Below, piece by piece: positions 5,144 through 62,522 of a DNA stretch of 64,000 bases (within the stretch, counting starts at the first letter, position 1; each line of letters starts with the position of its first letter). A program made the position numbers and the translations under genes. The notes below the pieces were generated by a model, which had not been told where the DNA came from, did not search any database, and saw only the letters and a program-made list of their open reading frames with translations. The stretch spans positions 186,001-250,000 of the forward strand of contig NZ_CP068393.1 in NCBI RefSeq assembly GCF_018128945.1, written 5' to 3'. Source of the DNA: Aristaeella hokkaidonensis (GTDB taxonomy: Bacteria; Bacillota; Clostridia; Christensenellales; Aristaeellaceae).

Positions 5144-6199
5144 TTACTCGTACTGGTCAAAGTGCTCCTTCAGAGACTGGTAAACAGGATCATCAGGGGA
5201 CTCAGCCAGGAGGCTGGCGAGCGCCTTGTCATAGACCGCAGTGTTGTAGAGGGGGTCTATATCGTAATCCTGAATGTAACCCAGTTCGACGATGGAAGCC
5301 TTTAAAGCGACCGTTCCCTGCTTGTCCGGATCGGGAACGGAAGTACCGTATCCGCCGTAAACCTCGGTCCTGATATAGTCTTCGTCAATATCAATGTACT
5401 GTTTGATGTCCCGGATGGATTCGTCCTGATGCTCCTGGGAGAACTTGTAGGCTTTGATCAGGGCACGCTCAAACGCATTGTACGCATTGGGATATTCCGT
5501 AAGCGCGGCGCTCGGCGCGACCTGACGGCAGCAGGGCTGATTCTTCAGCGCCTCCTCCTCAGAGCAGCGGTAGACAATTTCGTATCCCAGTCCCTTTGCC
5601 AGTGAGGCATAGGGGGAATAGACGGACGCCGCGTCGATGGAACCGTTCTGCAGGGCATTGAATGCGTCCTTCTGGCTGTCGAAGTAGATGATGTGAACCT
5701 GGCCTTCGGCTTCGCCGATTTCAATACCCGCGTTTCTCAGGAGGATCTGCAGTTCAGCGTCCTGTACACTGTTCTTGACAGAGGCCACATTCCTGTCCTT
5801 CAGGATGGAAACATCCCATTCAGTCAGGCCTTCGGTGTATTCCGGCTTGATCACATATCCGTGACCGTTGGTCATTGCCCCACCGAAGATGGTGAGATCC
5901 TGACCCTGACTCTGGAAAGAGAGGATCGGAACGGAACCGATAAACGCCACATCCAGTTTGCCGGAGATCAGGCCGGTCGCAAGTTCAGACGCGCTGGAGA
6001 ACTGGGTCAGGGTTACGTTCAGGCCTTCTTCCTCGAAGTAACCTTCTTCCCTGGCGATGAATCCGAGCAGATGAGCTGTGGAATTCAGATAGCCAAGTCC
6101 GAAGTCGGCTTTTTCAACAGCGGGGGTTTCCGCACCGGCAGGAACAGCCAGTGAAAGCACCAGCGCAAGAAGCGCTGCGATTGCAATAATCTTTTTCAT
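5144..6199 (-). CDS. ABC transporter substrate-binding protein, NitT/TauT (NMT1-like) family
   Basis: This is an extracytoplasmic solute receptor of about 351 residues. It has a signal peptide (MKKIIAIAALLALVLSLAVPAGAE) and the NMT1/SsuA-type fold signature: FIAREEGYFEEEGLNV, GLISGKLDVAFIGSVP, then SVQDAELQILLRNAG. An internal QPCCRQV segment contains an adjacent Cys pair. The ATG 6197-6199 has AAGGATGA upstream. It follows the Cys-Cys repeat protein by 51 bases without a terminator, so both are probably cotranscribed. Substrate candidates are sulfonates (sulfur-regulon context) or aryl/branched carboxylates (PorGDAB and PaaK context). Confidence 0.85.
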   Translation of the reverse strand: MKKIIAIAALLALVLSLAVPAGAETPAVEKADFGLGYLNSTAHLLGFIAREEGYFEEEGLNVTLTQFSSASELATGLISGKLDVAFIGSVPILSFQSQGQDLTIFGGAMTNGHGYVIKPEYTEGLTEWDVSILKDRNVASVKNSVQDAELQILLRNAGIEIGEAEGQVHIIYFDSQKDAFNALQNGSIDAASVYSPYASLAKGLGYEIVYRCSEEEALKNQPCCRQVAPSAALTEYPNAYNAFERALIKAYKFSQEHQDESIRDIKQYIDIDEDYIRTEVYGGYGTSVPDPDKQGTVALKASIVELGYIQDYDIDPLYNTAVYDKALASLLAESPDDPVYQSLKEHFDQYE

Positions 6200-6250
6200 G
6201 TTAATCATCCTTTCAATCTGTTATCAGTCTGACCGATTTACGATCGTTTT

Positions 6251-6568
6251 TCAGTTTCCGCAACAATCGGGAATATTATCCGGAAGCGTTACTTCAGTGG
6301 ATTCCTGCTTGCAGCAATCTGGAGTGTTTTCCTCTCCTGTTTCCTGCTTGCAGCAGTCTTTTTCTTCCTGCTTTTCCTGTTTGCAGCAGTCTTTCTCTTC
6401 CTGGGATTCCTGCCTGCAGCAGTCAGGAGTGGATTCCTCCGCGGTCTCCTGCTGACAGCATTCTTTTACTTCCTGGCCGTCATGTCCGAGGCTGCTTTCC
6501 ACAGGTTTGCCGTTTCCTGCAAGAAAGAGGAAGATGAAACTGAGAATTAAACTAAGATACTGGATCAA
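6251..6568 (-). CDS. Unrecognised small membrane protein with six Cys-Cys repeats
   Basis: I do not recognise this 105-residue protein. A hydrophobic segment (residues 3-18) is followed by an acidic, Gln/Glu-rich tail with Cys pairs at 37-38, 50-51, 61-62, 72-73, 85-86 and 102-103. Most sit in a CC(K/R/Q)QE unit repeated every 11-13 residues. Start is TTG 6566-6568 with a strong GGGAGGA seven bases upstream. It is the first gene after promoter 6793-6821 and a hairpin terminator (6600-6628), and leads into the ABC/Por/PaaK operon. The tail could bind metal, form disulfides or act as a thiol store; translation of 12 Cys codons could also act as a cysteine gauge. It does not match the short FeoB-associated Cys-rich proteins I know. 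Confidence 0.75.
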   Translation of the reverse strand: MIQYLSLILSFIFLFLAGNGKPVESSLGHDGQEVKECCQQETAEESTPDCCRQESQEEKDCCKQEKQEEKDCCKQETGEENTPDCCKQESTEVTLPDNIPDCCGN

Positions 6569-7864: not shown

Positions 7865-7892
7865 GGGGTTATAAGATTGTGAGGTAATGACG

Positions 7893-8330
7893 ATGAAGAT
7901 TTCAACAAAAGGCCGTTATGCGCTTCGGTTTCTGCTTGACCTTGCAGAGCATCAACAGGCAGGTTATATTTCGCTGAATGAGATTGCCAAGCGCCAGGAT
8001 ATCTCCAAGAAGTACCTGGAGCAGATTATTCCGATCTTTAACAAGACCGATGTTCTCAGGGCCAACCGAGGCTCTCAGGGCGGCTATATGCTGGCGAAGT
8101 CTCCCGATAAATATACTGTCGGAGATATCCTGCGCTGCACCGAAGGCTCCCTGGCTCCTGTGGACTGTGCGGAACAGGATCCCGTTGAATGCGAACGCAG
8201 TGCAGAGTGTGTGATGCTTCCGGTCTGGCAGGGCCTTTCCAGGGTGATTAATGAGTATCTGGACAGCATCACGCTGCAGGACATTCTGGATCAGCAGCGT
8301 GAACGGTATGCGAACGACTATGTTATCTGA
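7893..8330 (+). CDS. Rrf2-family regulator (CymR/IscR-like)
   Basis: This is a 145-residue Rrf2 winged-helix regulator. The N-terminus MKISTKGRYALRFLLDLAEH, the recognition region ISKKYLEQIIPIF and the GSQGGYMLAK wing are characteristic. Three cysteines (CAEQDPVECERSAEC, about residues 91-105) resemble the Fe-S ligand region of IscR-type members, whereas CymR proper senses cysteine through CysK. I chose ATG 7893-7895 because GAGGT lies seven bases upstream; the ATG at 7887 would be one base from it. It sits among cysteine genes, so a CymR-like role in sulfur control is likely. Whether it holds a cluster is open. Confidence 0.88.
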   Translation: MKISTKGRYALRFLLDLAEHQQAGYISLNEIAKRQDISKKYLEQIIPIFNKTDVLRANRGSQGGYMLAKSPDKYTVGDILRCTEGSLAPVDCAEQDPVECERSAECVMLPVWQGLSRVINEYLDSITLQDILDQQRERYANDYVI

Positions 8331-8383: not shown

Positions 8384-9295
8384 TCATTCGTACAGGTTTT
8401 TGCTGAAATAACGGTCACCCCGGTCAGGCAGGATAACCACGATATTGCCGCGTGCACCTGAATCAATGAGCTTCTTTGCCGCGCTCAGCGCCGCACCGGA
8501 AGAGGATCCGCCGAAGATCCCTTCTTTTTTCGCCAGCTCCCGGGCTCCGGTAAAGGCATCGTTATCATCAACTTTGATGACCTTATCCACCAGTGACATG
8601 TCCATTGTATCGGCGACGAAGTCATTGCCGATCCCTTCGATGTTGTAATCGGCATGCTCACCGCCGCCCATGGTGGAACCTACCGGATCGGCCAGGACAC
8701 CTTTGATTGCGGGATTCTGCTCTTTCAGATACCGTACGACGCCGGAATATGTGCCGCCGCTGCCGGCACCGGCAACCAGGTAATCAATCTTTCCATCCAG
8801 GTCACGCCAGATTTCCGGGCCGGTTGTTTCATAATGCGCTTTCGGATTGGCCATGTTTTTGAACTGCCGCAGGGTTACGGCGCCGGGAATGGATGCACGC
8901 AGCTCCTCTGCTTTAGCTTCTGCACCGAGCATACCTTCTTCCCGGGGCGTGTTGATGATATCCGCTCCCAGCGCACGCATGAGCGTTTGTTTTTCCACGG
9001 AGAATTTTGTCGGTACTACAAAGATGACCCGGTATCCCCGGTTCAGTGCGGCAAAAGCGATTCCGAGACCGGTGTTGCCTGCGGTGCCTTCCACAATGGT
9101 TCCGCCAGGCTTCAGCAGGCCTTTTTGTTCCGCATCCTCGATCATGGACCTGCCGATCCGGTCCTTTACACTGCCGCCCGGATTATACAGCTCCAGCTTT
9201 GCAAACAGATTGACGCCTTCCGGCAGATTCAGGTGGGAAAGCTTTACGATCGGCGTATTTCCGATGAGATCCTGGGTTGACTCATAATAGCTCAT
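8384..9295 (-). CDS. mccA: Cystathionine beta-synthase / cysteine synthase family protein (MccA-like)
   Basis: This PLP enzyme of 303 residues is a CysK paralogue. It has the PLP lysine motif GGSVKDRIG, the substrate loop EGTAGNTGLG, and GAGSGGTYSG and GGSSSGAA for cofactor phosphate and serine contacts. The EGTAGNTG loop (rather than EPTSGNTG of the second paralogue) and placement directly after an mccB-like gene parallel Bacillus MccA (YrhA), which joins O-acetylserine and homocysteine into cystathionine. The ATG has GAGGA eight bases upstream. It is the last gene of the methyltransferase-luxS-mccB-mccA operon, so it should help move methionine sulfur to cysteine. A plain cysteine synthase role cannot be excluded. 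Confidence 0.82.
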   Translation of the reverse strand: MSYYESTQDLIGNTPIVKLSHLNLPEGVNLFAKLELYNPGGSVKDRIGRSMIEDAEQKGLLKPGGTIVEGTAGNTGLGIAFAALNRGYRVIFVVPTKFSVEKQTLMRALGADIINTPREEGMLGAEAKAEELRASIPGAVTLRQFKNMANPKAHYETTGPEIWRDLDGKIDYLVAGAGSGGTYSGVVRYLKEQNPAIKGVLADPVGSTMGGGEHADYNIEGIGNDFVADTMDMSLVDKVIKVDDNDAFTGARELAKKEGIFGGSSSGAALSAAKKLIDSGARGNIVVILPDRGDRYFSKNLYE

Positions 9296-9299
9296 TTTA

Positions 9300-10457
9300 T
9301 TATTCCTCGCTTTCCGCAATGGCCTGTTCAAGATCTGCGAGCAGATCCTCAATGTCTTCAATACCGATTGACAGGCGGATCAGTCCGTCTGTGATGCCGA
9401 CTTTATCCCGTACGTCCTTCGGAATGGAAGCGTGGGTCATGCTGGCGGGATGGCAGACAAGGCTTTCCACACCACCAAGGCTTTCAGCCAGAGCAATCAG
9501 CTTCAGGGCCTTGAAGAACCTGCGGATGTTGTGACGTTCGTCCAGTTCAAAGGAGATCATTGCACCGCCGTTTTTAGCCTGCCGTTTGTTGATCTCGTAA
9601 CCCTGCGCGTCGGGCAGTCCCGGGTAATATACTTTTTTGACTGCTTTGTGATTTTTCAGGAAGGCAGCTGCCTTTTCCGCATTCTCCACGTGGCGGTCCA
9701 GCCGGACGCCCAGCGTCTTGATGCCGCGGATGAGCAGGAAGGAATCGAAGGGCCCGAGTACACCACCTGTGGCATTCTGGATAAACGCCAGCCGCTCGGC
9801 AAGGACAGTATCATTTACCACCACCAGACCGGCTACGAGATCACTGTGTCCGCCGAGGTACTTTGTAGCGCTGTGAATCACAATATCCACACCCAGCTCA
9901 ATAGGACGCTGGAGATAGGGCGTCATGAAGGTGTTGTCCACGATAGACAGGATACCGTTATTTTTGGCGATCTTTGCAACGGCAGCCAGGTCGGTGATGG
10001 TCAGGAGCGGATTCGCCGGGCTTTCCACAAGAATCGCTTTTACATCCGGTGTGATGCTTCTTTCCAGCAGCGCCAGGTCTGAGGTATCGACAATCTCATA
10101 ACTGAGATCAAAGTTTTTAAATACTTTGTCCAGCACACGGAAGGTTCCGCCGTAAACGTTGGATGAAATAATGACTTTATCGCCGGTTTTGAACAGCGTC
10201 AGGACGGCGGTGATTGCCGCCATGCCGGAGCCGAAGGCGAAACCTGCTGTACCGCCTTCCAGTTCCGCGATCAGCGCTTCCAGCGCTGCACGGGTAGGAT
10301 TGCCTGTGCGGGAATATTCCCAGCCGGTGTTTTCACCCAGACCATGCTGTTCATAGGTGGACGTCTGATAAATAGGAGTGTTGACTGCACCCGTTACTTT
10401 GTCTCCATAAATACCGCCGTGGATCAGCGCGGTGCCTGTTTTTTTGTAATTAGCCAT
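9300..10457 (-). CDS. mccB: Cystathionine gamma-lyase / homocysteine gamma-lyase (MccB-like)
   Basis: This is a 385-residue PLP enzyme of the Cys/Met metabolism family. Visible are YSRTGNPT near residue 49, the FGSGMAAI cofactor loop and the PLP lysine in SATKYLGGHSD near 200. The strong AAGGAGG upstream of ATG 10455-10457 fixes the start. It lies 27 bases after luxS and 4 bases before mccA. In this position it would cleave cystathionine to cysteine, 2-oxobutyrate and ammonia. Family members MetB, MetC and MccB are hard to separate by sequence, and the neighbours are what favour MccB. Confidence 0.85.
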   Translation of the reverse strand: MANYKKTGTALIHGGIYGDKVTGAVNTPIYQTSTYEQHGLGENTGWEYSRTGNPTRAALEALIAELEGGTAGFAFGSGMAAITAVLTLFKTGDKVIISSNVYGGTFRVLDKVFKNFDLSYEIVDTSDLALLERSITPDVKAILVESPANPLLTITDLAAVAKIAKNNGILSIVDNTFMTPYLQRPIELGVDIVIHSATKYLGGHSDLVAGLVVVNDTVLAERLAFIQNATGGVLGPFDSFLLIRGIKTLGVRLDRHVENAEKAAAFLKNHKAVKKVYYPGLPDAQGYEINKRQAKNGGAMISFELDERHNIRRFFKALKLIALAESLGGVESLVCHPASMTHASIPKDVRDKVGITDGLIRLSIGIEDIEDLLADLEQAIAESEE

Positions 10458-10484: not shown

Positions 10485-10940
10485 TCAGTACGCGAGTTTT
10501 TCTGTATTCCAGTTTTCCAGGACCGTAAGCATATCTGACGCTGTCCGTCGGGCTCCGGCGAGATCGTGTTCCTGCCAGTTTCCGCATTCCTGGCGTTTGG
10601 CGCCGGGGATTTCACCCTCAAATGCTGAGATAAAGCTGAATGACTGCCTGACGAGATCGATGGCTTCTCCGCCGCTGACCGTATCCCGAAGCAACAGGTA
10701 AAAACCTGTGCGGCAGCCCATGGGACCGACATAAACCACGCTGTCCCGGTATATGCTGTTCCGCGCGTAAGTGGCAAACAAATGTTCAAAGGTGTGCAGT
10801 TCTGCATAACCGAGATAATCGCCGCCATTGGGTTTTTTCATCCGGATGTCGTAGGTGACCACGTCGCCGTCCACACGGGATATATACATTCCTTTTTCCA
10901 GCCGGTCATGATCGACCGAGAAACTGGCGATCCTGTCCAT
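10485..10940 (-). CDS. luxS: S-ribosylhomocysteine lyase (autoinducer-2 synthase)
   Basis: LuxS cleaves S-ribosylhomocysteine to homocysteine and DPD, the autoinducer-2 precursor. The 151-residue protein keeps the metal-binding HTFEH motif near residue 53, a third ligand cysteine in RQECGNWQEH near 123, and the family's GPMGCRTGFYLL block. AAGGAGAG precedes the ATG. It supplies homocysteine to the mccA/mccB pair downstream, while the methyltransferase upstream generates the S-adenosylhomocysteine that feeds this path. The nucleosidase (Pfs/MtnN) needed between them is not in the window. Confidence 0.95.
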   Translation of the reverse strand: MDRIASFSVDHDRLEKGMYISRVDGDVVTYDIRMKKPNGGDYLGYAELHTFEHLFATYARNSIYRDSVVYVGPMGCRTGFYLLLRDTVSGGEAIDLVRQSFSFISAFEGEIPGAKRQECGNWQEHDLAGARRTASDMLTVLENWNTEKLAY

Positions 10941-10988: not shown

Positions 10989-11924
10989 TCAGATATACAG
11001 ATAGTAGCTGTCGTTGAAGCGGTCTCCCTTTTTTGCCAGGATAAAGTGGATATTTTCGTAAGCCTGCTGGCCGTCGGTCCGGCCGTCGAAGAACCGCTTC
11101 TGGATCTTTTCTGGCGAGTTGTGCTCATCCAGCAGGAAACCGTGCCGCTCCAGTGCTTCCGAAACCTCCGACAGCGCGTATCCGTGCTGCATTTCCTCAC
11201 CGAGGGAACTGGTGATTTCCGACAGGCGGTGTACGCGTTCCGCCGTATCCGGCGTGAAGGTGGTGTCATCCGGAAAATCAAAAACCAGCTTGCTCCCAAA
11301 GGAAGAGATGGCACCGATGCGCTCCAGGGTTTCCTCAAAGACCGGCAATGTCAGATAATAGGTGACTCCTAATATCGCAAAGAAAGACGGTGCGGCCGGG
11401 TTGTATCCTGCTTTCTTCAGCTCCACTGCCATATCATCCTTTGCAAAATCCACGGCGACATAGTGTACATTGGCCGGGATATTCCACTCCAGCGCCCGGA
11501 TCTTTTCCAGCTTGTAACGCTGGGTATCGGGATGGTCGATTTCAAAGACCTGGATGTTGGGATTATCATTCCGGAACGCGAAGGTATCCATACCGGCTCC
11601 GCAGATTACGTACTGGCATTCTCCACGCTGCCAGGTGAACCGGGTCAGTTCCCGTTCCGCAAAGGCAGCCCGGGAGAGCGGAATAGGAGAAATGTACCGG
11701 TTCAGCTTGTCGCGGATTCTTTTTCCGCTGAAGTTATAAGCCAGGTCAAACAGGCTTTTGTCATATTCATGTTCGATCAGCTGTCCGATCTCATCGTATT
11801 CTTCCTTGCCCATAAGGTCGTAGGCAAGATAATCATCAAAGATTTTGTTCTTCTCGTGATTGGAATGGTAAGCGCGGGCAAAGGAACAAAGCTTTGCCGT
11901 TACGCTTTCCATGTCATCGATCAT
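10989..11924 (-). CDS. SAM-dependent methyltransferase, leucine carboxyl methyltransferase-like family
   Basis: This is a 311-residue class I methyltransferase resembling the LCMT/PPM1-like family. The SAM loop CGAGMDTFAFR (near residue 100) and acidic FEIDHPDTQRYK are visible. The ATG 11922-11924 follows AGAGGTGA; the frame is open much further upstream into the attenuator, but that part is non-coding leader. It is the first structural gene after the cysteine attenuator and precedes luxS. In Bacillus a different methyltransferase (YrrT) heads the equivalent methionine-to-cysteine operon. The acceptor substrate is unknown; its role may be to turn SAM into S-adenosylhomocysteine when methionine is plentiful. 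Confidence 0.8.
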   Translation of the reverse strand: MIDDMESVTAKLCSFARAYHSNHEKNKIFDDYLAYDLMGKEEYDEIGQLIEHEYDKSLFDLAYNFSGKRIRDKLNRYISPIPLSRAAFAERELTRFTWQRGECQYVICGAGMDTFAFRNDNPNIQVFEIDHPDTQRYKLEKIRALEWNIPANVHYVAVDFAKDDMAVELKKAGYNPAAPSFFAILGVTYYLTLPVFEETLERIGAISSFGSKLVFDFPDDTTFTPDTAERVHRLSEITSSLGEEMQHGYALSEVSEALERHGFLLDEHNSPEKIQKRFFDGRTDGQQAYENIHFILAKKGDRFNDSYYLYI

Positions 11925-11958
11925 AAAATCACCTCTTCTTTCAGTCTGAGCATAAAGA

Positions 11959-12166
11959 AATCCCGCCGTGTTCTGCCTCCGCCGGAGAGCGGATCGGGAA
12001 CAGGCGGGATTCGGATGTTCAAAGCCGGTGTCTATCTGCCGCCTGTGCCTTCGTGACAACACAGACAGCAACGCATGCCCGCGGAGGCAGCAGAACTGAC
12101 GGGACGGTGAATAACCGTTCCGGAAAGAGAATTCAGCCTGTTCAGGGGGCGTGCAGTAAACTTCAT
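11959..12166 (-). promoter_or_regulatory. Cysteine-responsive transcription attenuator (leader peptide plus alternative hairpins)
   Basis: Four segments in order on the minus strand can form exclusive helices. Segment 1 (12086-12094) pairs with segment 2 (12035-12043) over 9 bp including one GU. Segment 2 (12039-12046) pairs with segment 3 (12000-12007) over 8 bp. Segment 3 (11998-12011) pairs with segment 4 (11959-11973) as a long GC-rich terminator followed by TTTCTTT. Four Cys codons lie between 1 and 2. A ribosome stalled there would leave 2 free to pair with 3 (antitermination). A ribosome reaching the TAG would cover 2 and let 3:4 terminate. Confidence 0.8.
12032..12166 (-). CDS. Cysteine leader peptide (44 aa, CysCysLeuCysCys)
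   Basis: This is a short attenuator leader peptide, not an enzyme. It starts at ATG 12164-12166 with AGAGGAA upstream, beginning 20 bases after the cysK stop, and ends MRCCLCCHEGTGGR at TAG 12032-12034. The Cys codons TGC TGT CTG TGT TGT lie at 12056-12070. Its last codons overlap segment 2 of the attenuator, so the position of the ribosome decides which RNA helix forms. Its sequence is otherwise unremarkable (Arg, Ser and Leu rich), as expected for a leader under selection at the RNA level. Confidence 0.8.
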   Translation of the reverse strand: MKFTARPLNRLNSLSGTVIHRPVSSAASAGMRCCLCCHEGTGGR

Positions 12167-12185
12167 GATTTCATTCCTCTTCTGA

Positions 12186-13115
12186 TTAATCGGAGAACAT
12201 GGGGGTGGACAGATAACGTTCACCGGTATCCGGGAGCAGGGCGACGATGATTTTGCCTTTGTTCTCGGGTCGTTTTGCCAACTCAGTTGCAGCCCAGACT
12301 GCGGCGCCGGAAGAAATACCAACCAGGAGGCCTTCTTTCCGTGCCAGGGTTCTGCCGGTATCAAACGCGTCCTCATTATCGACCGCGATGATTTCGTCAT
12401 AGATTCCGGTATCCAGGGTATCCGGTACAAAGCCTGCACCGATGCCCTGAATCTTGTGCGGTCCGGATGTTCCCTGGGAAAGCACCGGAGAACCGGCCGG
12501 TTCAACAGCGACGACTTTCACATTGGGGTTCTGTTCCTTCAGGTACTGTCCGACGCCGGAAACCGTACCGCCCGTACCTACGCCTGCAACGAAGATATCT
12601 ACCTTACCGTCTGTATCTTCCCAGATTTCCGGACCGGTAGTGGCACGGTGGGCTTTCGGGTTGGCGATGTTGGTAAACTGGCTGGGAATGAAGCTGTGGG
12701 GTGTTTCGGCGGCGAGCTCATGAGCCTTTTCAATTGCGCCTTTCATGCCTTTCGCACCTTCGGTCAGTACGAGCTCGGCACCATACGCCTTCAGCAGGTT
12801 GCGGCGTTCAATACTCATGGTTTCAGGCATGGTCAGGATAATCCGGTAGCCACGGGCAGCCGCAACAGCCGCCAGGCCGATGCCGGTGTTGCCACTGGTG
12901 GGCTCAATGATCACGGAGTCGGGCTTCAGAATGCCCTTGTCTTCCGCGTCGTCGATCATTGCCTTCGCAATCCGGTCTTTCACGCTTCCGGCGGGATTGA
13001 AATATTCCAGCTTGCCGTAGATTGTCGCTCCAAGTGAGTTCAGCCGGTTATAGTTTGTGAGCTTTAAAAGCGGGGTTCCCCCGATCAGGTCAGTGATTCT
13101 GTCATAAGTCTTCAT
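12186..13115 (-). CDS. cysK: Cysteine synthase A (O-acetylserine sulfhydrylase)
   Basis: CysK makes cysteine from O-acetylserine and sulfide. The 309-residue protein has the PLP lysine motif [11 protein letters not shown] near residue 42, the [10 protein letters not shown] substrate loop near 69, [11 protein letters not shown] binding the cofactor phosphate, and GISSGAA near the C-terminus. GAGGAG lies 11 bases before the ATG, a slightly long spacing. It has its own strong promoter (13258-13286) and heads a transcript continuing through the leader peptide into the methyltransferase-luxS-mccBA genes. The attenuator would therefore let cysK be made while the reverse-transsulfuration genes are switched off. 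Confidence 0.95.
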
Positions 13116-34764: not shown

Positions 34765-34799
34765 AAGTTTTATAGCATATCCCACCCCCAGGGGAATGA

Positions 34800-35000
34800 T
34801 ATTTTCACGGTGTAAACAAGTCTCCCGGCTTGGCTTCATTCTACTTGCACACCTTCCCGCACAATTGCAGTGGCTTCTTTACGTGCTTTCGTCAGCTTCA
34901 CGGTTACTGGGATAGCCCGGAACTCTCATCCGTGTTCCTATGACGCGCTTCCTGAGAAGCAGCGCCGCGCATCGCTGCGCAGATACACCGGCTATTCATT
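34800..35000 (-). ncRNA. Cobalamin riboswitch upstream of btuF
   Basis: The minus-strand leader contains the B12-box-like AAGCCAAGCCGGGAGAC (near 34820-34836) and AGCCACTG (near 34868-34875). It also has the GGGCTATCCCAGTAACCGTGA core (near 34900-34920). Transcription would start near 35004 from the promoter at 35011. When cobalamin is bound, the terminator at 34737-34764 should stop importer synthesis. Boundaries are approximate. Confidence 0.88.
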
Positions 35001-47870: not shown

Positions 47871-48848
47871 ATGCGTAGAAGAATCGTGCCGATCCTTGTG
47901 CTGCTTGTGCTGTTCCTCCTGACCGGCTGTGCCGGGAAACAGGAAACAGGCGGAGACAGCGCGTCTGTTGTGGTTGGCTTTTCCCAGCTGGGAGCGGAAA
48001 GCTCCTGGCGTATTGCAAACACTGTCAGCATGGAACAGGCCGCGAAGGCTGCCGGTTACGGGCTGATGATGGAAAACGCGAACCAGAAACAGGAAAAGCA
48101 GATCGACGCGATCCGTTCCTTTATTGCATACCGCGTGGATGTGATTGTTTTCTCGCCGATTGTGCAGACCGGCTGGGACAATGTGCTGGCGGAAGCAAAA
48201 CAGGCAGACATTCCGGTGATTATCATGGACCGGATGATTGATACCCAGGATGACTCATTGTACAGAGCCTATGTGGGTGCAGATTTCTACGCTGAAGGCG
48301 TCCGGGCCGGGGAATACCTGATCCGGAAGGCTGACACGCTGGGCGCTGATCATCTGCGGATCGTGGAAATCTGCGGTACGACGGGGTCCACTCCCATGCA
48401 GGACCGGCAGCGGGGCTTTATGGACGTGATCGGGAAGGATGAACGGTTCACCGTTATCGAAAGCGTGGACGGGGATTTCCTTCAGTCCAAGGGTGAGGAA
48501 TGCATGCGGGAACTCCTGCAGAAATACGGGACAGACGGCATCGACGTGATATACTCCCACAATGACGCTATGACGCTTGGCGCGCTGAATGTGCTGGAGA
48601 AAGAAGAAACCGCCGGATCCAAAGACATGATCATCATCACTGTGGACGGGGAAAAGGACGCAGTGGATGCCCTGAAGGCCGGAAAAATCAACTGTGTGGT
48701 ACAGTGTACGCCGCACCTGGGGCCTTCCGTGATGAAGCTGGTCAGGGATGTGACGGCCGGAAAGGAAATACCCAAAGTATATCATCCGGATGAGGGAGCG
48801 TTCAGTGACTTTGACGACCTGACTGATCCGGCGGTGGAGGGTTTCTGA
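47871..48848 (+). CDS. Sugar-binding lipoprotein (YtfQ-like), likely sensor partner of the histidine kinase
   Basis: This is a 325-residue periplasmic-binding protein of the sugar (PBP type 1) class. The lipobox LLTGC near residue 20 makes it a lipoprotein. The sequence GFSQLGAESSWRIANT, QKQEKQIDAIRSFIAYRVDVIVFSP and TGWDNVLAEAKQADIPV closely follow galactofuranose-binding YtfQ. ATG 47871 has AGGTGA five bases before it. It has no permease next to it; instead the kinase starts two bases after its stop. That arrangement suggests it presents a sugar to the sensor rather than to a transporter. Confidence 0.85.
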   Translation: MRRRIVPILVLLVLFLLTGCAGKQETGGDSASVVVGFSQLGAESSWRIANTVSMEQAAKAAGYGLMMENANQKQEKQIDAIRSFIAYRVDVIVFSPIVQTGWDNVLAEAKQADIPVIIMDRMIDTQDDSLYRAYVGADFYAEGVRAGEYLIRKADTLGADHLRIVEICGTTGSTPMQDRQRGFMDVIGKDERFTVIESVDGDFLQSKGEECMRELLQKYGTDGIDVIYSHNDAMTLGALNVLEKEETAGSKDMIIITVDGEKDAVDALKAGKINCVVQCTPHLGPSVMKLVRDVTAGKEIPKVYHPDEGAFSDFDDLTDPAVEGF

Positions 48849-59572: not shown

Positions 59573-59589
59573 AAACGGTTTTGTACAGC

Positions 59590-59685
59590 ATGACCGCTTC
59601 CCTACGGTAGGATTACCTACACAGGTTCCAAGGGTCGGGCGATGCCCTCTCAGCCGGAAACCGGCCCCCCCAGCGTGCATGTTCG
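59590..59685 (-). ncRNA. TPP (THI-box) riboswitch
   Basis: On the minus strand the conserved segments appear in order: GGCTGAGAGGGC, CGACCCTTGGAACCTG and GTAATCCTACCGTAGGGAAGC. Thiamine pyrophosphate binding should favour the terminator at 59541-59572 and lower thiamine uptake. Confidence 0.93.
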
Positions 59686-60616: not shown

Positions 60617-60619
60617 TGC

Positions 60620-60885
60620 GGTGCAATGATGGAGATCCAGTAGGGAACAGATAATCCGCACAGAGAGCTGCCGGGAGGTGCGAGGCAGCCGGAGCTGTTT
60701 ATCCGAAATACTCTCCGGAGCTGTGATCTGAATCCTGCAAGGGTAGTAGGAAAGCCGGGGGCGCCCGATACAGCGCAAAGGATATGAAAGTATCCGGAGG
60801 CCGGCCCTGAACGGGGCGGCAAATACGAGGTGGTACCGCGGAGTTAATTCGCCCTCTGTGTCCGAAGGGACACAGGGGCTTTTTT
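60620..60885 (+). ncRNA. T-box riboswitch leader (specifier probably Tyr)
   Basis: The 363-base gap after thiN is filled by a T-box leader. A long stem I carries AGTAGGGAACAGATAA (near 60640), the AGAGAG loop motif and GGAGCTG on the far arm. The tRNA acceptor-binding sequence AGGTGGTACCGCG lies at 60828-60840, followed by the terminator. The specifier region reads GAAATACTCTC (near 60702-60712); UAC (Tyr) is my best reading, AUA (Ile) an alternative. Uncharged tRNA would turn on the downstream symporter. Confidence 0.9.
60851..60885 (+). terminator. T-box terminator hairpin
   Basis: GCCC-CTGTGTCC pairs with GGACACAG-GGGC around GAAG, followed by TTTTTTC. Confidence 0.9.
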
Positions 60886-60917: not shown

Positions 60918-62522
60918 ATGGTATTAGGTGATCTGGCACTCAAACTCGGTATGCTGTTGGTTTTCTTCGGCGTCATGGTCTATGTCGGTTTCTACTGCAG
61001 GAAGCATTCCACCGACGTGAACGGCTTTGTGCTCGGCGGACGGAGCGTAGGCCCCTGGCTGACCGCATTCGCTTACGGCACTTCCTATTTCTCCGCTGTT
61101 ATTTTTGTCGGCTATGCCGGACAGTTCGGCTGGAAGTTTGGTATTGCCGCCACCTGGGTGGGTATCGGCAACGCCCTGATCGGTTCGCTGATGGCCTGGG
61201 TGATCCTCGGACGGCGTACCCGGATTATGACGCAGCACCTGTCCAGTGCCACGATGCCTGACTTCTTCGAGAAGCGGTTCGACGCGACTTCCCTGAAGAT
61301 TGCTGCTTCCATCATTATCTTTATCTTCATGATTCCCTATACCGCGTCCCTGTACAACGGACTGAGCCGTCTGTTCCGGATGGCCTTCAATATTGACTAT
61401 TCCGTCTGCGTGATCGTTATGGCGGTGCTGACTGCCATCTACGTGATTGTCGGTGGCTATATGGCAACGGCAGTGAATGACTTTATCCAGGGCATCATCA
61501 TGCTGGTGGGTATTGTGGCGGTCATCGGGGCTGTGCTGGGCAGCAAGGGCGGCTTCATGGCTTCCCTGGAAGGCCTGTCCGCGGCAAAGGATACCAGCGC
61601 GGGTTTTGCGAACGGTACGGTTCCCGGCATCTTCAACTCCTTCTTCGGACCGGATCCGCTGAGCCTGCTGGGCGTTGTGCTGCTGACTTCCCTGGGCACC
61701 TGGGGACTTCCCCAGATGGTTGGCAAGTTCTATGCCATCAAGAGTGAAGGCTCCATTCATAAGGGAACCATTATCTCCACTCTCTTCGCTATGGTGGTTG
61801 CGGGCGGCTGCTACTTCCTGGGCGGCTTCGGCCGTCTGTTTGCCGCTGAACTCGGCGCCGCGGAAGGCGGCAACCCGGCGGGCGGCTTTGACAACGTGAT
61901 CCCGACGATGCTGCAGACCCTGTCTCCCTTCCTGATCGCGATTGTGATCATCCTGGTACTTTCTGCATCCATGTCCACGCTGTCTTCCCTGGTGCTGACT
62001 TCCTCCTCCACGGTAACCCTGGACCTGCTCAAGGGCCGTGTGATCAAGGATATGGACGAGAAAAAGCAGCTGCTGATCATGCGGGTGCTGATCGTGGTCT
62101 TCATCATTATTTCCGCCGCACTGGCTATCGTACAGGCAAACTCCAGCGTTGCCTTTATTGCCCAGGCAATGGGTGTCAGCTGGGGCGCCATGGCCGGTGC
62201 ATTCCTTGCTCCCTTCCTCTACGGCCTGTACTGGAAGCGGACCACGAAGACCGGCTGCTGGGCTGCCATGCTCTTCTCCTCTGTATTCATGATCATTGAC
62301 ATGCTGGCCAACCTGAAGGTGCTGAATATCAGCCTCGGTTTCCTGCAGTCCCCGATCAACGCGGGTGCTTTCTGCATGATCGCCGGCCTGATCATCGTTC
62401 CGCTGATCAGCCTGATCTCAAAAGCACCGGACAAGGATACGGTGGATCGTATCTTCTCCTGCTATGAGCGGAAGGTTATTGTTACCGCCAAGGATTCTAT
62501 TGAAACCGAAGCGGAAGGCTGA
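60918..62522 (+). CDS. Sodium:solute symporter (SSS family), T-box regulated
   Basis: This is a 534-residue membrane transporter with about 13 hydrophobic segments. SSS-family features include GFVLGGRSVGPWLTAFAYGTSYFSAVIFVGYAG near 35, MTQHLSSATMPDFFEKRFD near 95, and LGTWGLPQMVGKFYAIKSE near 258. AAGGAG precedes the ATG. Control by a T-box means its substrate should be an amino acid or a precursor, most likely tyrosine or a related aromatic compound if the specifier is UAC. PutP-like proline transport is the alternative suggested by family alone. Confidence 0.88.
   Translation: MVLGDLALKLGMLLVFFGVMVYVGFYCRKHSTDVNGFVLGGRSVGPWLTAFAYGTSYFSAVIFVGYAGQFGWKFGIAATWVGIGNALIGSLMAWVILGRRTRIMTQHLSSATMPDFFEKRFDATSLKIAASIIIFIFMIPYTASLYNGLSRLFRMAFNIDYSVCVIVMAVLTAIYVIVGGYMATAVNDFIQGIIMLVGIVAVIGAVLGSKGGFMASLEGLSAAKDTSAGFANGTVPGIFNSFFGPDPLSLLGVVLLTSLGTWGLPQMVGKFYAIKSEGSIHKGTIISTLFAMVVAGGCYFLGGFGRLFAAELGAAEGGNPAGGFDNVIPTMLQTLSPFLIAIVIILVLSASMSTLSSLVLTSSSTVTLDLLKGRVIKDMDEKKQLLIMRVLIVVFIIISAALAIVQANSSVAFIAQAMGVSWGAMAGAFLAPFLYGLYWKRTTKTGCWAAMLFSSVFMIIDMLANLKVLNISLGFLQSPINAGAFCMIAGLIIVPLISLISKAPDKDTVDRIFSCYERKVIVTAKDSIETEAEG

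Follow-up and report, generated by a model that had tools for sequence, protein, structure and literature searches.

A 64,000-nucleotide stretch of the Aristaeella hokkaidonensis genome (contig NZ_CP068393.1; this whole stretch is called the window) very probably carries on its minus strand a ribosome-mediated transcription attenuator, which from its sequence is predicted to be specific for charged tRNA-Cys; the confidence expressed here refers to the class of mechanism. The gene order, a leader with a run of Cys codons, the possible RNA pairings, a terminator and the conservation of these features together with a methyltransferase gene can be read directly from the DNA. The gene upstream of the leader is cysK, encoding O-acetylserine thiol-lyase (12186..13115, minus strand; NCBIfam TIGR01139, 470 bits at a cut-off of 351). 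The first gene 3' of the attenuator encodes a SAM-dependent methyltransferase of the LCM/TIGR00027 family (10989..11924; NCBIfam TIGR00027, 147.7 bits; Pfam PF04072, 140.7 bits) and it is followed on the same strand by luxS for S-ribosylhomocysteine lyase (10485..10940; NCBIfam NF002604, 170.6 bits, cut-off 158), by mccB for a cystathionine gamma-lyase/homocysteine desulfhydrase-like enzyme (9300..10457; NCBIfam NF005810, 573.4 bits and hence below the cut-off of 594) and by mccA for a cysteine synthase/cystathionine beta-synthase-like enzyme (8384..9295; NCBIfam TIGR01136, 344.3 bits, cut-off 344.15). The start of mccA was placed at MSYYES by inference, within an ORF that is open from 9361. 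From the roles assigned to these enzymes, methyltransferase, LuxS, MccB and MccA would pass sulfur from SAM/methionine to cysteine. Convergent with mccA, a regulator of the Rrf2 family is encoded on the plus strand (7887-8330) with IscR and CymR scores both under cut-off; it could add cysteine control at the promoter level.

The leader peptide ORF (12032..12166, minus strand) has 44 codons (...MRCCLCCHEGTGGR; full reading MKFTARPLNRLNSLSGTVIHRPVSSAASAGMRCCLCCHEGTGGR), and 16 other loci have a Cys-run leader in the corresponding position. It is preceded by the Shine-Dalgarno sequence AGAAGAGG (12176..12183, minus strand), for which a duplex energy of -5.9 kcal/mol with the anti-Shine-Dalgarno sequence was obtained. 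The control codons TGC TGT CTG TGT TGT (Cys Cys Leu Cys Cys; 12056..12070, minus strand) contain the Cys codons at 12070-12065 and 12061-12056. These observations confirm the initial annotation, made from the sequence of the window, in placing a 44-codon ORF with ribosome binding site and Cys-Cys-Leu-Cys-Cys motif after cysK and ahead of methyltransferase-luxS-mccB-mccA. The mycobacterial poly-Cys ORFs are reportedly leaderless, a term said to stand in the title of Canestrari et al. 2020, whereas the leader of the window has a Shine-Dalgarno sequence and its start codon lies 19 nt after the stop codon of cysK.

Folding of the region revealed three helices that exclude each other in part. Segment 1 (12071-12058), which overlaps the Cys codons, forms a helix of 14 bp with segment 2 (12036..12049), i.e., 12071-12058 with 12049-12036. 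The core ACAGGCGG of segment 2 (12046-12039) is able to pair either with segment 1 or, over 8 bp, with the core CCGCCUGU of segment 3 (12007-12000), and this core in turn is able to pair with segment 2 or 4. Segment 3 (11998..12012) is the 5' arm and segment 4 (11958..11973) the 3' arm of an intrinsic terminator, a helix that has about 15 bp, contains a single bulge and joins 12012-11998 to 11973-11958 (-32.9 kcal/mol; all segments on the minus strand). Its U-rich tract at about 11960-11953, UUUCUUUA, is interrupted in the window, and the hairpin is absent from the list returned by a simple terminator scan. The mutually exclusive helices described in the initial annotation were thus recovered, including the 8 bp of 2:3, whereas the 1:2 helix is 14 bp and not 9 bp long; the terminator placed there directly before methyltransferase-luxS-mccBA was found as described, 33 nt before the methyltransferase. 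An additional 10-bp match, suggested as a further antiterminator, is present in the window (p = 0.02) but is not conserved and was dropped as a part of the element, as the match fails in the loci L003 (p = 0.126) and L005 (p = 0.96). The fold of the 231-nt region has a z-score of -3.9 and that of its 101-nt 3' part a z-score of -4.0, and in neither case was any of 200 shuffles equally stable. Tested for the window alone against shuffles, 2:3 reached p = 0.031 and 1:2 p = 0.113, the latter being short of 0.05.

In the mechanism that we propose, RNA polymerase would pass from cysK into the leader and a ribosome would load at the leader's own Shine-Dalgarno sequence. With ample Cys-tRNA the ribosome would reach the stop codon and cover segment 2, so that 3:4 would form and transcription would end before the methyltransferase. 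With scarce Cys-tRNA it would stall on the Cys codons and cover segment 1, so that 2:3 would form in place of the terminator, methyltransferase-luxS-mccB-mccA would be made and sulfur would be directed from SAM/methionine to cysteine. If no ribosome were present, 1:2 and 3:4 would form and transcription would end as well. That cysK is co-transcribed and itself unaffected, that the leader is translated and that the ribosome stalls on it are points that we infer, as are the efficiency of termination and the response to cysteine. The last leader codons lie inside segment 2, as had been noted initially, and the stop codon (12034-12032) lies one base past it. Given the size of the ribosomal footprint, a ribosome whose A site holds an early Cys codon should leave segment 2 free and one at the stop codon should cover it, and both positions would agree with the classical attenuation model.

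Among relatives, the methyltransferase is close, with at least 47% identity, in 19 loci, 17 of which possess a Cys-run leader followed by a terminator. The two exceptions, L147 and L148, lie outside the window's class, among 398 genomes of the phylum, and are devoid of the architecture. In L148 (1080-1500) a terminator is followed by a 20-codon ORF, MKCICCNIGKILLKFERMWI (MKCICC...), directly before the methyltransferase, perhaps a different Cys-codon control, or chance. Eight of the 17 element loci are in genomes of the window's class and nine were reached via, or are in the family of, metagenome-assembled genomes labelled Ruminococcus, Ruminococcaceae or Clostridiales. At least four Cys within eight codons are present in 16 of the 17; the remaining one, L105, has three Cys in two clusters. 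Within the window's genus the operon is present in three of 44 other genomes, all three keeping the leader; methyltransferase and CysK are 94-95%, MccB 92-95% and LuxS 85-92% identical to those of the window. The RCCLCC of the window reads CRCLCC in two of these relatives, while the third has RCCLCC followed by one Asn and the stop, with four Cys codons in all cases.

Searches from different starting points gave a consistent picture. In a collection of contigs, four of the best 80 cysK loci from a longer list have the methyltransferase at most 300 bp downstream of cysK, and all four have a CCMCC leader and a terminator; the remaining 76 have no methyltransferase in the surrounding stretch examined. 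The family of one such genome contains the close methyltransferase in five of 300 genomes at six places, one of which is the already counted L034; in every one, cysK lies upstream and a Cys-run leader is present. At a threshold of 1e-60, the 391 genomes of the class gave ten matches: the window, four close loci (L108-L111), each having both leader and terminator, and five loci at a greater distance (34-39% identity), which have neither. Three further family scans covering 11, 9 and 38 genomes gave no new close methyltransferase locus. Among 13 distant methyltransferases (L006-L013 and L112-L116; for L007 only 148 nt upstream were available) none has four Cys within eight codons upstream, L006 having three. 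One of them, L012 (G000:C1:2325903-2326697), is a second, distant (33%) methyltransferase of the family in the same genome as the window, and no short ORF with at least three Cys in eight codons was found upstream of it. As background, 4000 random draws of 423-nt windows of related DNA contained a short ORF with four Cys in eight codons in 0.98% and with three in 7.2% of the cases.

Regarding its genomic neighbourhood, cysK is located just upstream in 15 of the 17 element loci, and none was found in the stretch examined for L110 and L111; luxS is near the methyltransferase in 15 (not in L108 and L109; that of L036 is only 41% identical) and mccB in 14, the exceptions L036, L105 and L111 being loci where the examined stretch ends early. 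The methyltransferase is for this reason regarded as the constant partner of the element, and the tie to the cysK junction supposed in the initial annotation had to be given up. In L111, a 12-of-12 promoter match lies 54 nt before the leader start; promoter-like sites at this locus are no commoner than in shuffles (3 versus 3.1). One genome bin (G532) contains the cysK-leader-methyltransferase operon twice, as L101 and L106, with methyltransferases 91% identical, reflecting either duplication or mixed strains.

Simple sequence patterns were scanned as well. A strict pattern with CACAGRCGG occurs in one of 391 class genomes, the window's own, in two of 150 relatives and in four of four individually chosen genomes with five places, and since it misses the element-bearing genomes G001 and G023 of the same genus these counts are no measure of spread. 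The pattern TGYTGYN{0,9}TGYTGY occurs at 260 places across the whole genome in all frames, and an in-frame check was done for the window and 30 loci. L122 and L131, with weak hairpin scores of -5.7 and -9.6 in this crude test, were taken as chance because their Cys runs are both inside long ORFs in another frame; the element of the window reached only -8.3, since its exact length was not among the lengths tried. A CCLCC at 47899 of the window, inside a long ORF of another frame, was likewise taken as chance.

The pairing tests were based on 16 distinct loci, L004 being omitted as a near copy of L003, and on dinucleotide shuffles of segment 2. Pairing of 2:3 exceeds the shuffles at p<0.05 in 10 of the 16 loci (Fisher 1.4e-10) and that of 1:2 in 9 (Fisher 4.0e-9), Fisher values that exaggerate independence because the loci are related; taken singly, six loci miss p<0.05 for 2:3 and seven, the window included, for 1:2. 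In the modelled states, 2:3 forms with segment 1 masked in 15 of 16 loci (not L105), 3:4 with the ribosome at the stop codon in all 16, and 1:2 in the free RNA in 15 (not L036). Reading the element as a 1-2-3-4 Cys attenuator, as first proposed, is thereby supported, with 2:3 and 1:2 exceeding shuffles and the modelled switch operating in 15-16 of 16 loci. An intrinsic terminator was picked automatically in 13 of 16 loci; in L031, L101 and L106, where the automatic finder chose other hairpins and segment 3 was set by motif, it was identified by the alignments A3/A4, and in L004 by sequence.

In alignment A4, which has 13 rows including the misplaced and incomplete row of L109, kept in the counts, 95.9% of the cells are paired for 1:2 and 3:4, and the covariation of 0.214 compares with 0.150 +- 0.015 for shuffles, of which 1 in 500 reaches it, in an alignment that was fitted to this structure. 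Slid versions of these helices reach a covariation of at most 0.078. Only one pair of 1:2 and 3:4 shows a double-sided change, a count reached by 485 of 500 shuffles. For 2:3, to which the alignment was not fitted, 93.4% of the cells pair compared with 28-52% in slid versions; one pair changes on both sides and covariation is modest, being reached by 33 of 500 shuffles. In a set of eight loci 2:3 hardly varies and 254 of 500 shuffles reach its covariation. A joint MAFFT alignment of the window's genus and the other loci misaligned segment 3 and was left unused. Conservation and covariation among relatives, on which the initial annotation had staked its reading, largely bear it out, given the Cys-run leaders and terminators in 17 of 19 close loci, with few true double-sided changes.

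When a covariance model was derived from eight loci that do not belong to the window's genus, its sole match in the window was at 12073-11952 (27.3 bits, E 1.6e-4). Over 100 loci, it also matched L003, L004, L005, L109, L110 and weakly L111. It is regarded as supporting and not as decisive because neither L105 nor L108 was recovered and because a chance terminator in L039, with 27.7 bits, matched the score of the window. The matches in L039, L070 and L068 were rejected as terminators or other DNA without Cys runs. In L110, the model additionally gave a match on the minus strand.

The leader peptides differ between groups except for the Cys run and the residues encoded by segment 2. The Cys blocks read CCLCC, CRCLCC, CCMCCC, CCMCC, CACCMCC, CCCMCC, CCCRC, CCCCCC, CCIVCC, CCCCPCC, CCCIACC, CFCCCILC and CCSC, and the distance from the last Cys codon of a block to the stop codon ranges from +3 to +63 nt. 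This variability bears on a very unlikely alternative, namely that the leader acts as an arrest peptide or controls translation of the methyltransferase, as reported for the mycobacterial poly-Cys ORFs, instead of coupling tRNA-Cys starvation to termination: across groups there is no constant peptide sequence usable as an arrest motif, and in 17 loci a U-rich-tailed hairpin lies ahead of the methyltransferase, although the short distance from terminator to methyltransferase start would fit translational control and cysteine genes of M. smegmatis are mentioned under translation attenuation in the accessible part of one report (PMC13236596). Transcription attenuation remains the preferred reading. 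The same distance, 22-35 nt in the 13 loci with an automatic terminator pick, is hardly enough to accommodate a promoter and a ribosome site of the methyltransferase's own and speaks against the extremely unlikely case of a hairpin that is merely the end of the cysK transcript, a short ORF that arose by chance and a methyltransferase operon with its own promoter. Intrinsic terminators are ordinary transcript ends and this one does lie close behind cysK, but the element is also present in L110 and L111, with no cysK in the stretch examined, and a short downstream ORF with four Cys in eight codons is present in none of the 76 cysK loci without methyltransferase from the best 80. There is hardly any probability that the ORF encodes a functional small protein, e.g., a metal- or thiol-binding one, with the terminator merely fixing the ratio of cysK to downstream transcripts, since, although CCxCC motifs are found in metal-binding peptides, Cys spacing and number vary (CCLCC, CRCLCC, CCCCCC, CFCCCILC), most other residues differ between groups, the leader of the window has no Pfam or NCBIfam match, and segment 2 is also able to pair with segments 1 and 3.

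Classical attenuators are the trp, his, leu, thr and phe leaders of Proteobacteria. The element shares with those of the trp/his type the leader ORF with control codons, the exclusive 1:2, 2:3 and 3:4 helices, the last codons in segment 2 and the intrinsic terminator, and it differs in its Cys control codons, in its position between cysK and the controlled genes and in its occurrence in what appear to be Clostridia. In Rhodobacterales, a ribosome-mediated Cys attenuator, uORFC-8-2, was predicted before cysS; going by its description in the part of the report available, it is similar in that an intrinsic terminator follows a short ORF containing tandem Cys codons, and it differs in its two Cys codons, the phylum and the cysteinyl-tRNA synthetase gene (PMC8632094). 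Cys-run leader ORFs were described before cysteine genes in Actinobacteria, also before cbs in Bifidobacterium longum; these likewise contain several Cys codons in a row within a short ORF and differ in that, as far as the available sections state, no conserved terminator hairpin was found in Mycobacterium (PMC1262725). Within Firmicutes, excerpts of two reports describe the same kind of attenuation for the Leu leader of the S. aureus ilv operon and the His leader of bacilli, with other amino acids and other genes (PMC5794164, PMC2965389). In Clostridium perfringens, C. botulinum and C. acetobutylicum a cysteine T-box precedes the ubiG operon, that of C. acetobutylicum being described as not fully functional; according to the available text, the decision is the same, as a methyltransferase-mccB-(luxS)-mccA operon, whose products likewise convert methionine to cysteine, is opened by lack of cysteine, while the sensor is a tRNA-binding T-box in contrast to the translated leader here (PMC2940859). 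The T-box covariance model gave no match in 11900-12260 of the window with E values of up to 5, and none at the gathering score among 14 element loci; with the same scopes no Rfam family matches the element, except for one chance-level snoRNA match on the other strand.

Among the matches listed in mainly open-access literature, as judged by titles and the openings of abstracts, no report of this Cys element was found. The novelty claimed initially has to be narrowed, since Firmicutes are already known to have leader-peptide attenuators (Leu, His) and Cys leaders have been described for Alphaproteobacteria as well; as both the kind of attenuator and the Cys specificity are known elsewhere, what looks new is the lineage, the operon that is controlled and the position, one where a T-box might stand. 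On balance it seems probable that the element represents a class of Cys-specific 1-2-3-4 attenuators, observed to date in Clostridia-like genomes alone, which accompanies one methionine-to-cysteine operon headed by the methyltransferase, takes the place of the cysteine T-box controlling the equivalent operon of Clostridium and, where cysK lies upstream, splits one transcript such that the sulfide route is left on and the methionine route is opened only by shortage of tRNA-Cys. If this holds true, one decision, to make cysteine from methionine at uncharged tRNA-Cys, would be taken in related bacteria by RNA sensors of two unrelated kinds, and the replacement of sensors would become directly testable. 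It would also provide a readable signal of the cysteine response for those Clostridia of the rumen and gut that are known mainly through metagenomes, and cysteine would join the amino acids under leader-peptide control in Firmicutes.

Further features were observed in the window. On the minus strand at 6251-6568, a 105-aa ORF with TTG start, a hydrophobic N-terminus and repeated Cys-Cys pairs, without Pfam or NCBIfam match, ends 42 nt before the gene of a sulfonate/SaoX-like ABC substrate-binding protein (5144-6208). The ORF is reminiscent of the CC-rich SaoC proteins, and it may encode a SaoC-like protein or constitute another Cys-codon sensor. A TPP riboswitch (59582-59681) and a cobalamin riboswitch (34799-35000), both on the minus strand, exceed the Rfam gathering score. 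On the plus strand, a T-box leader (60617-60859; 97 bits) precedes a 534-aa ORF (60918-62522), the product of which looks by eye like a sodium:solute symporter.
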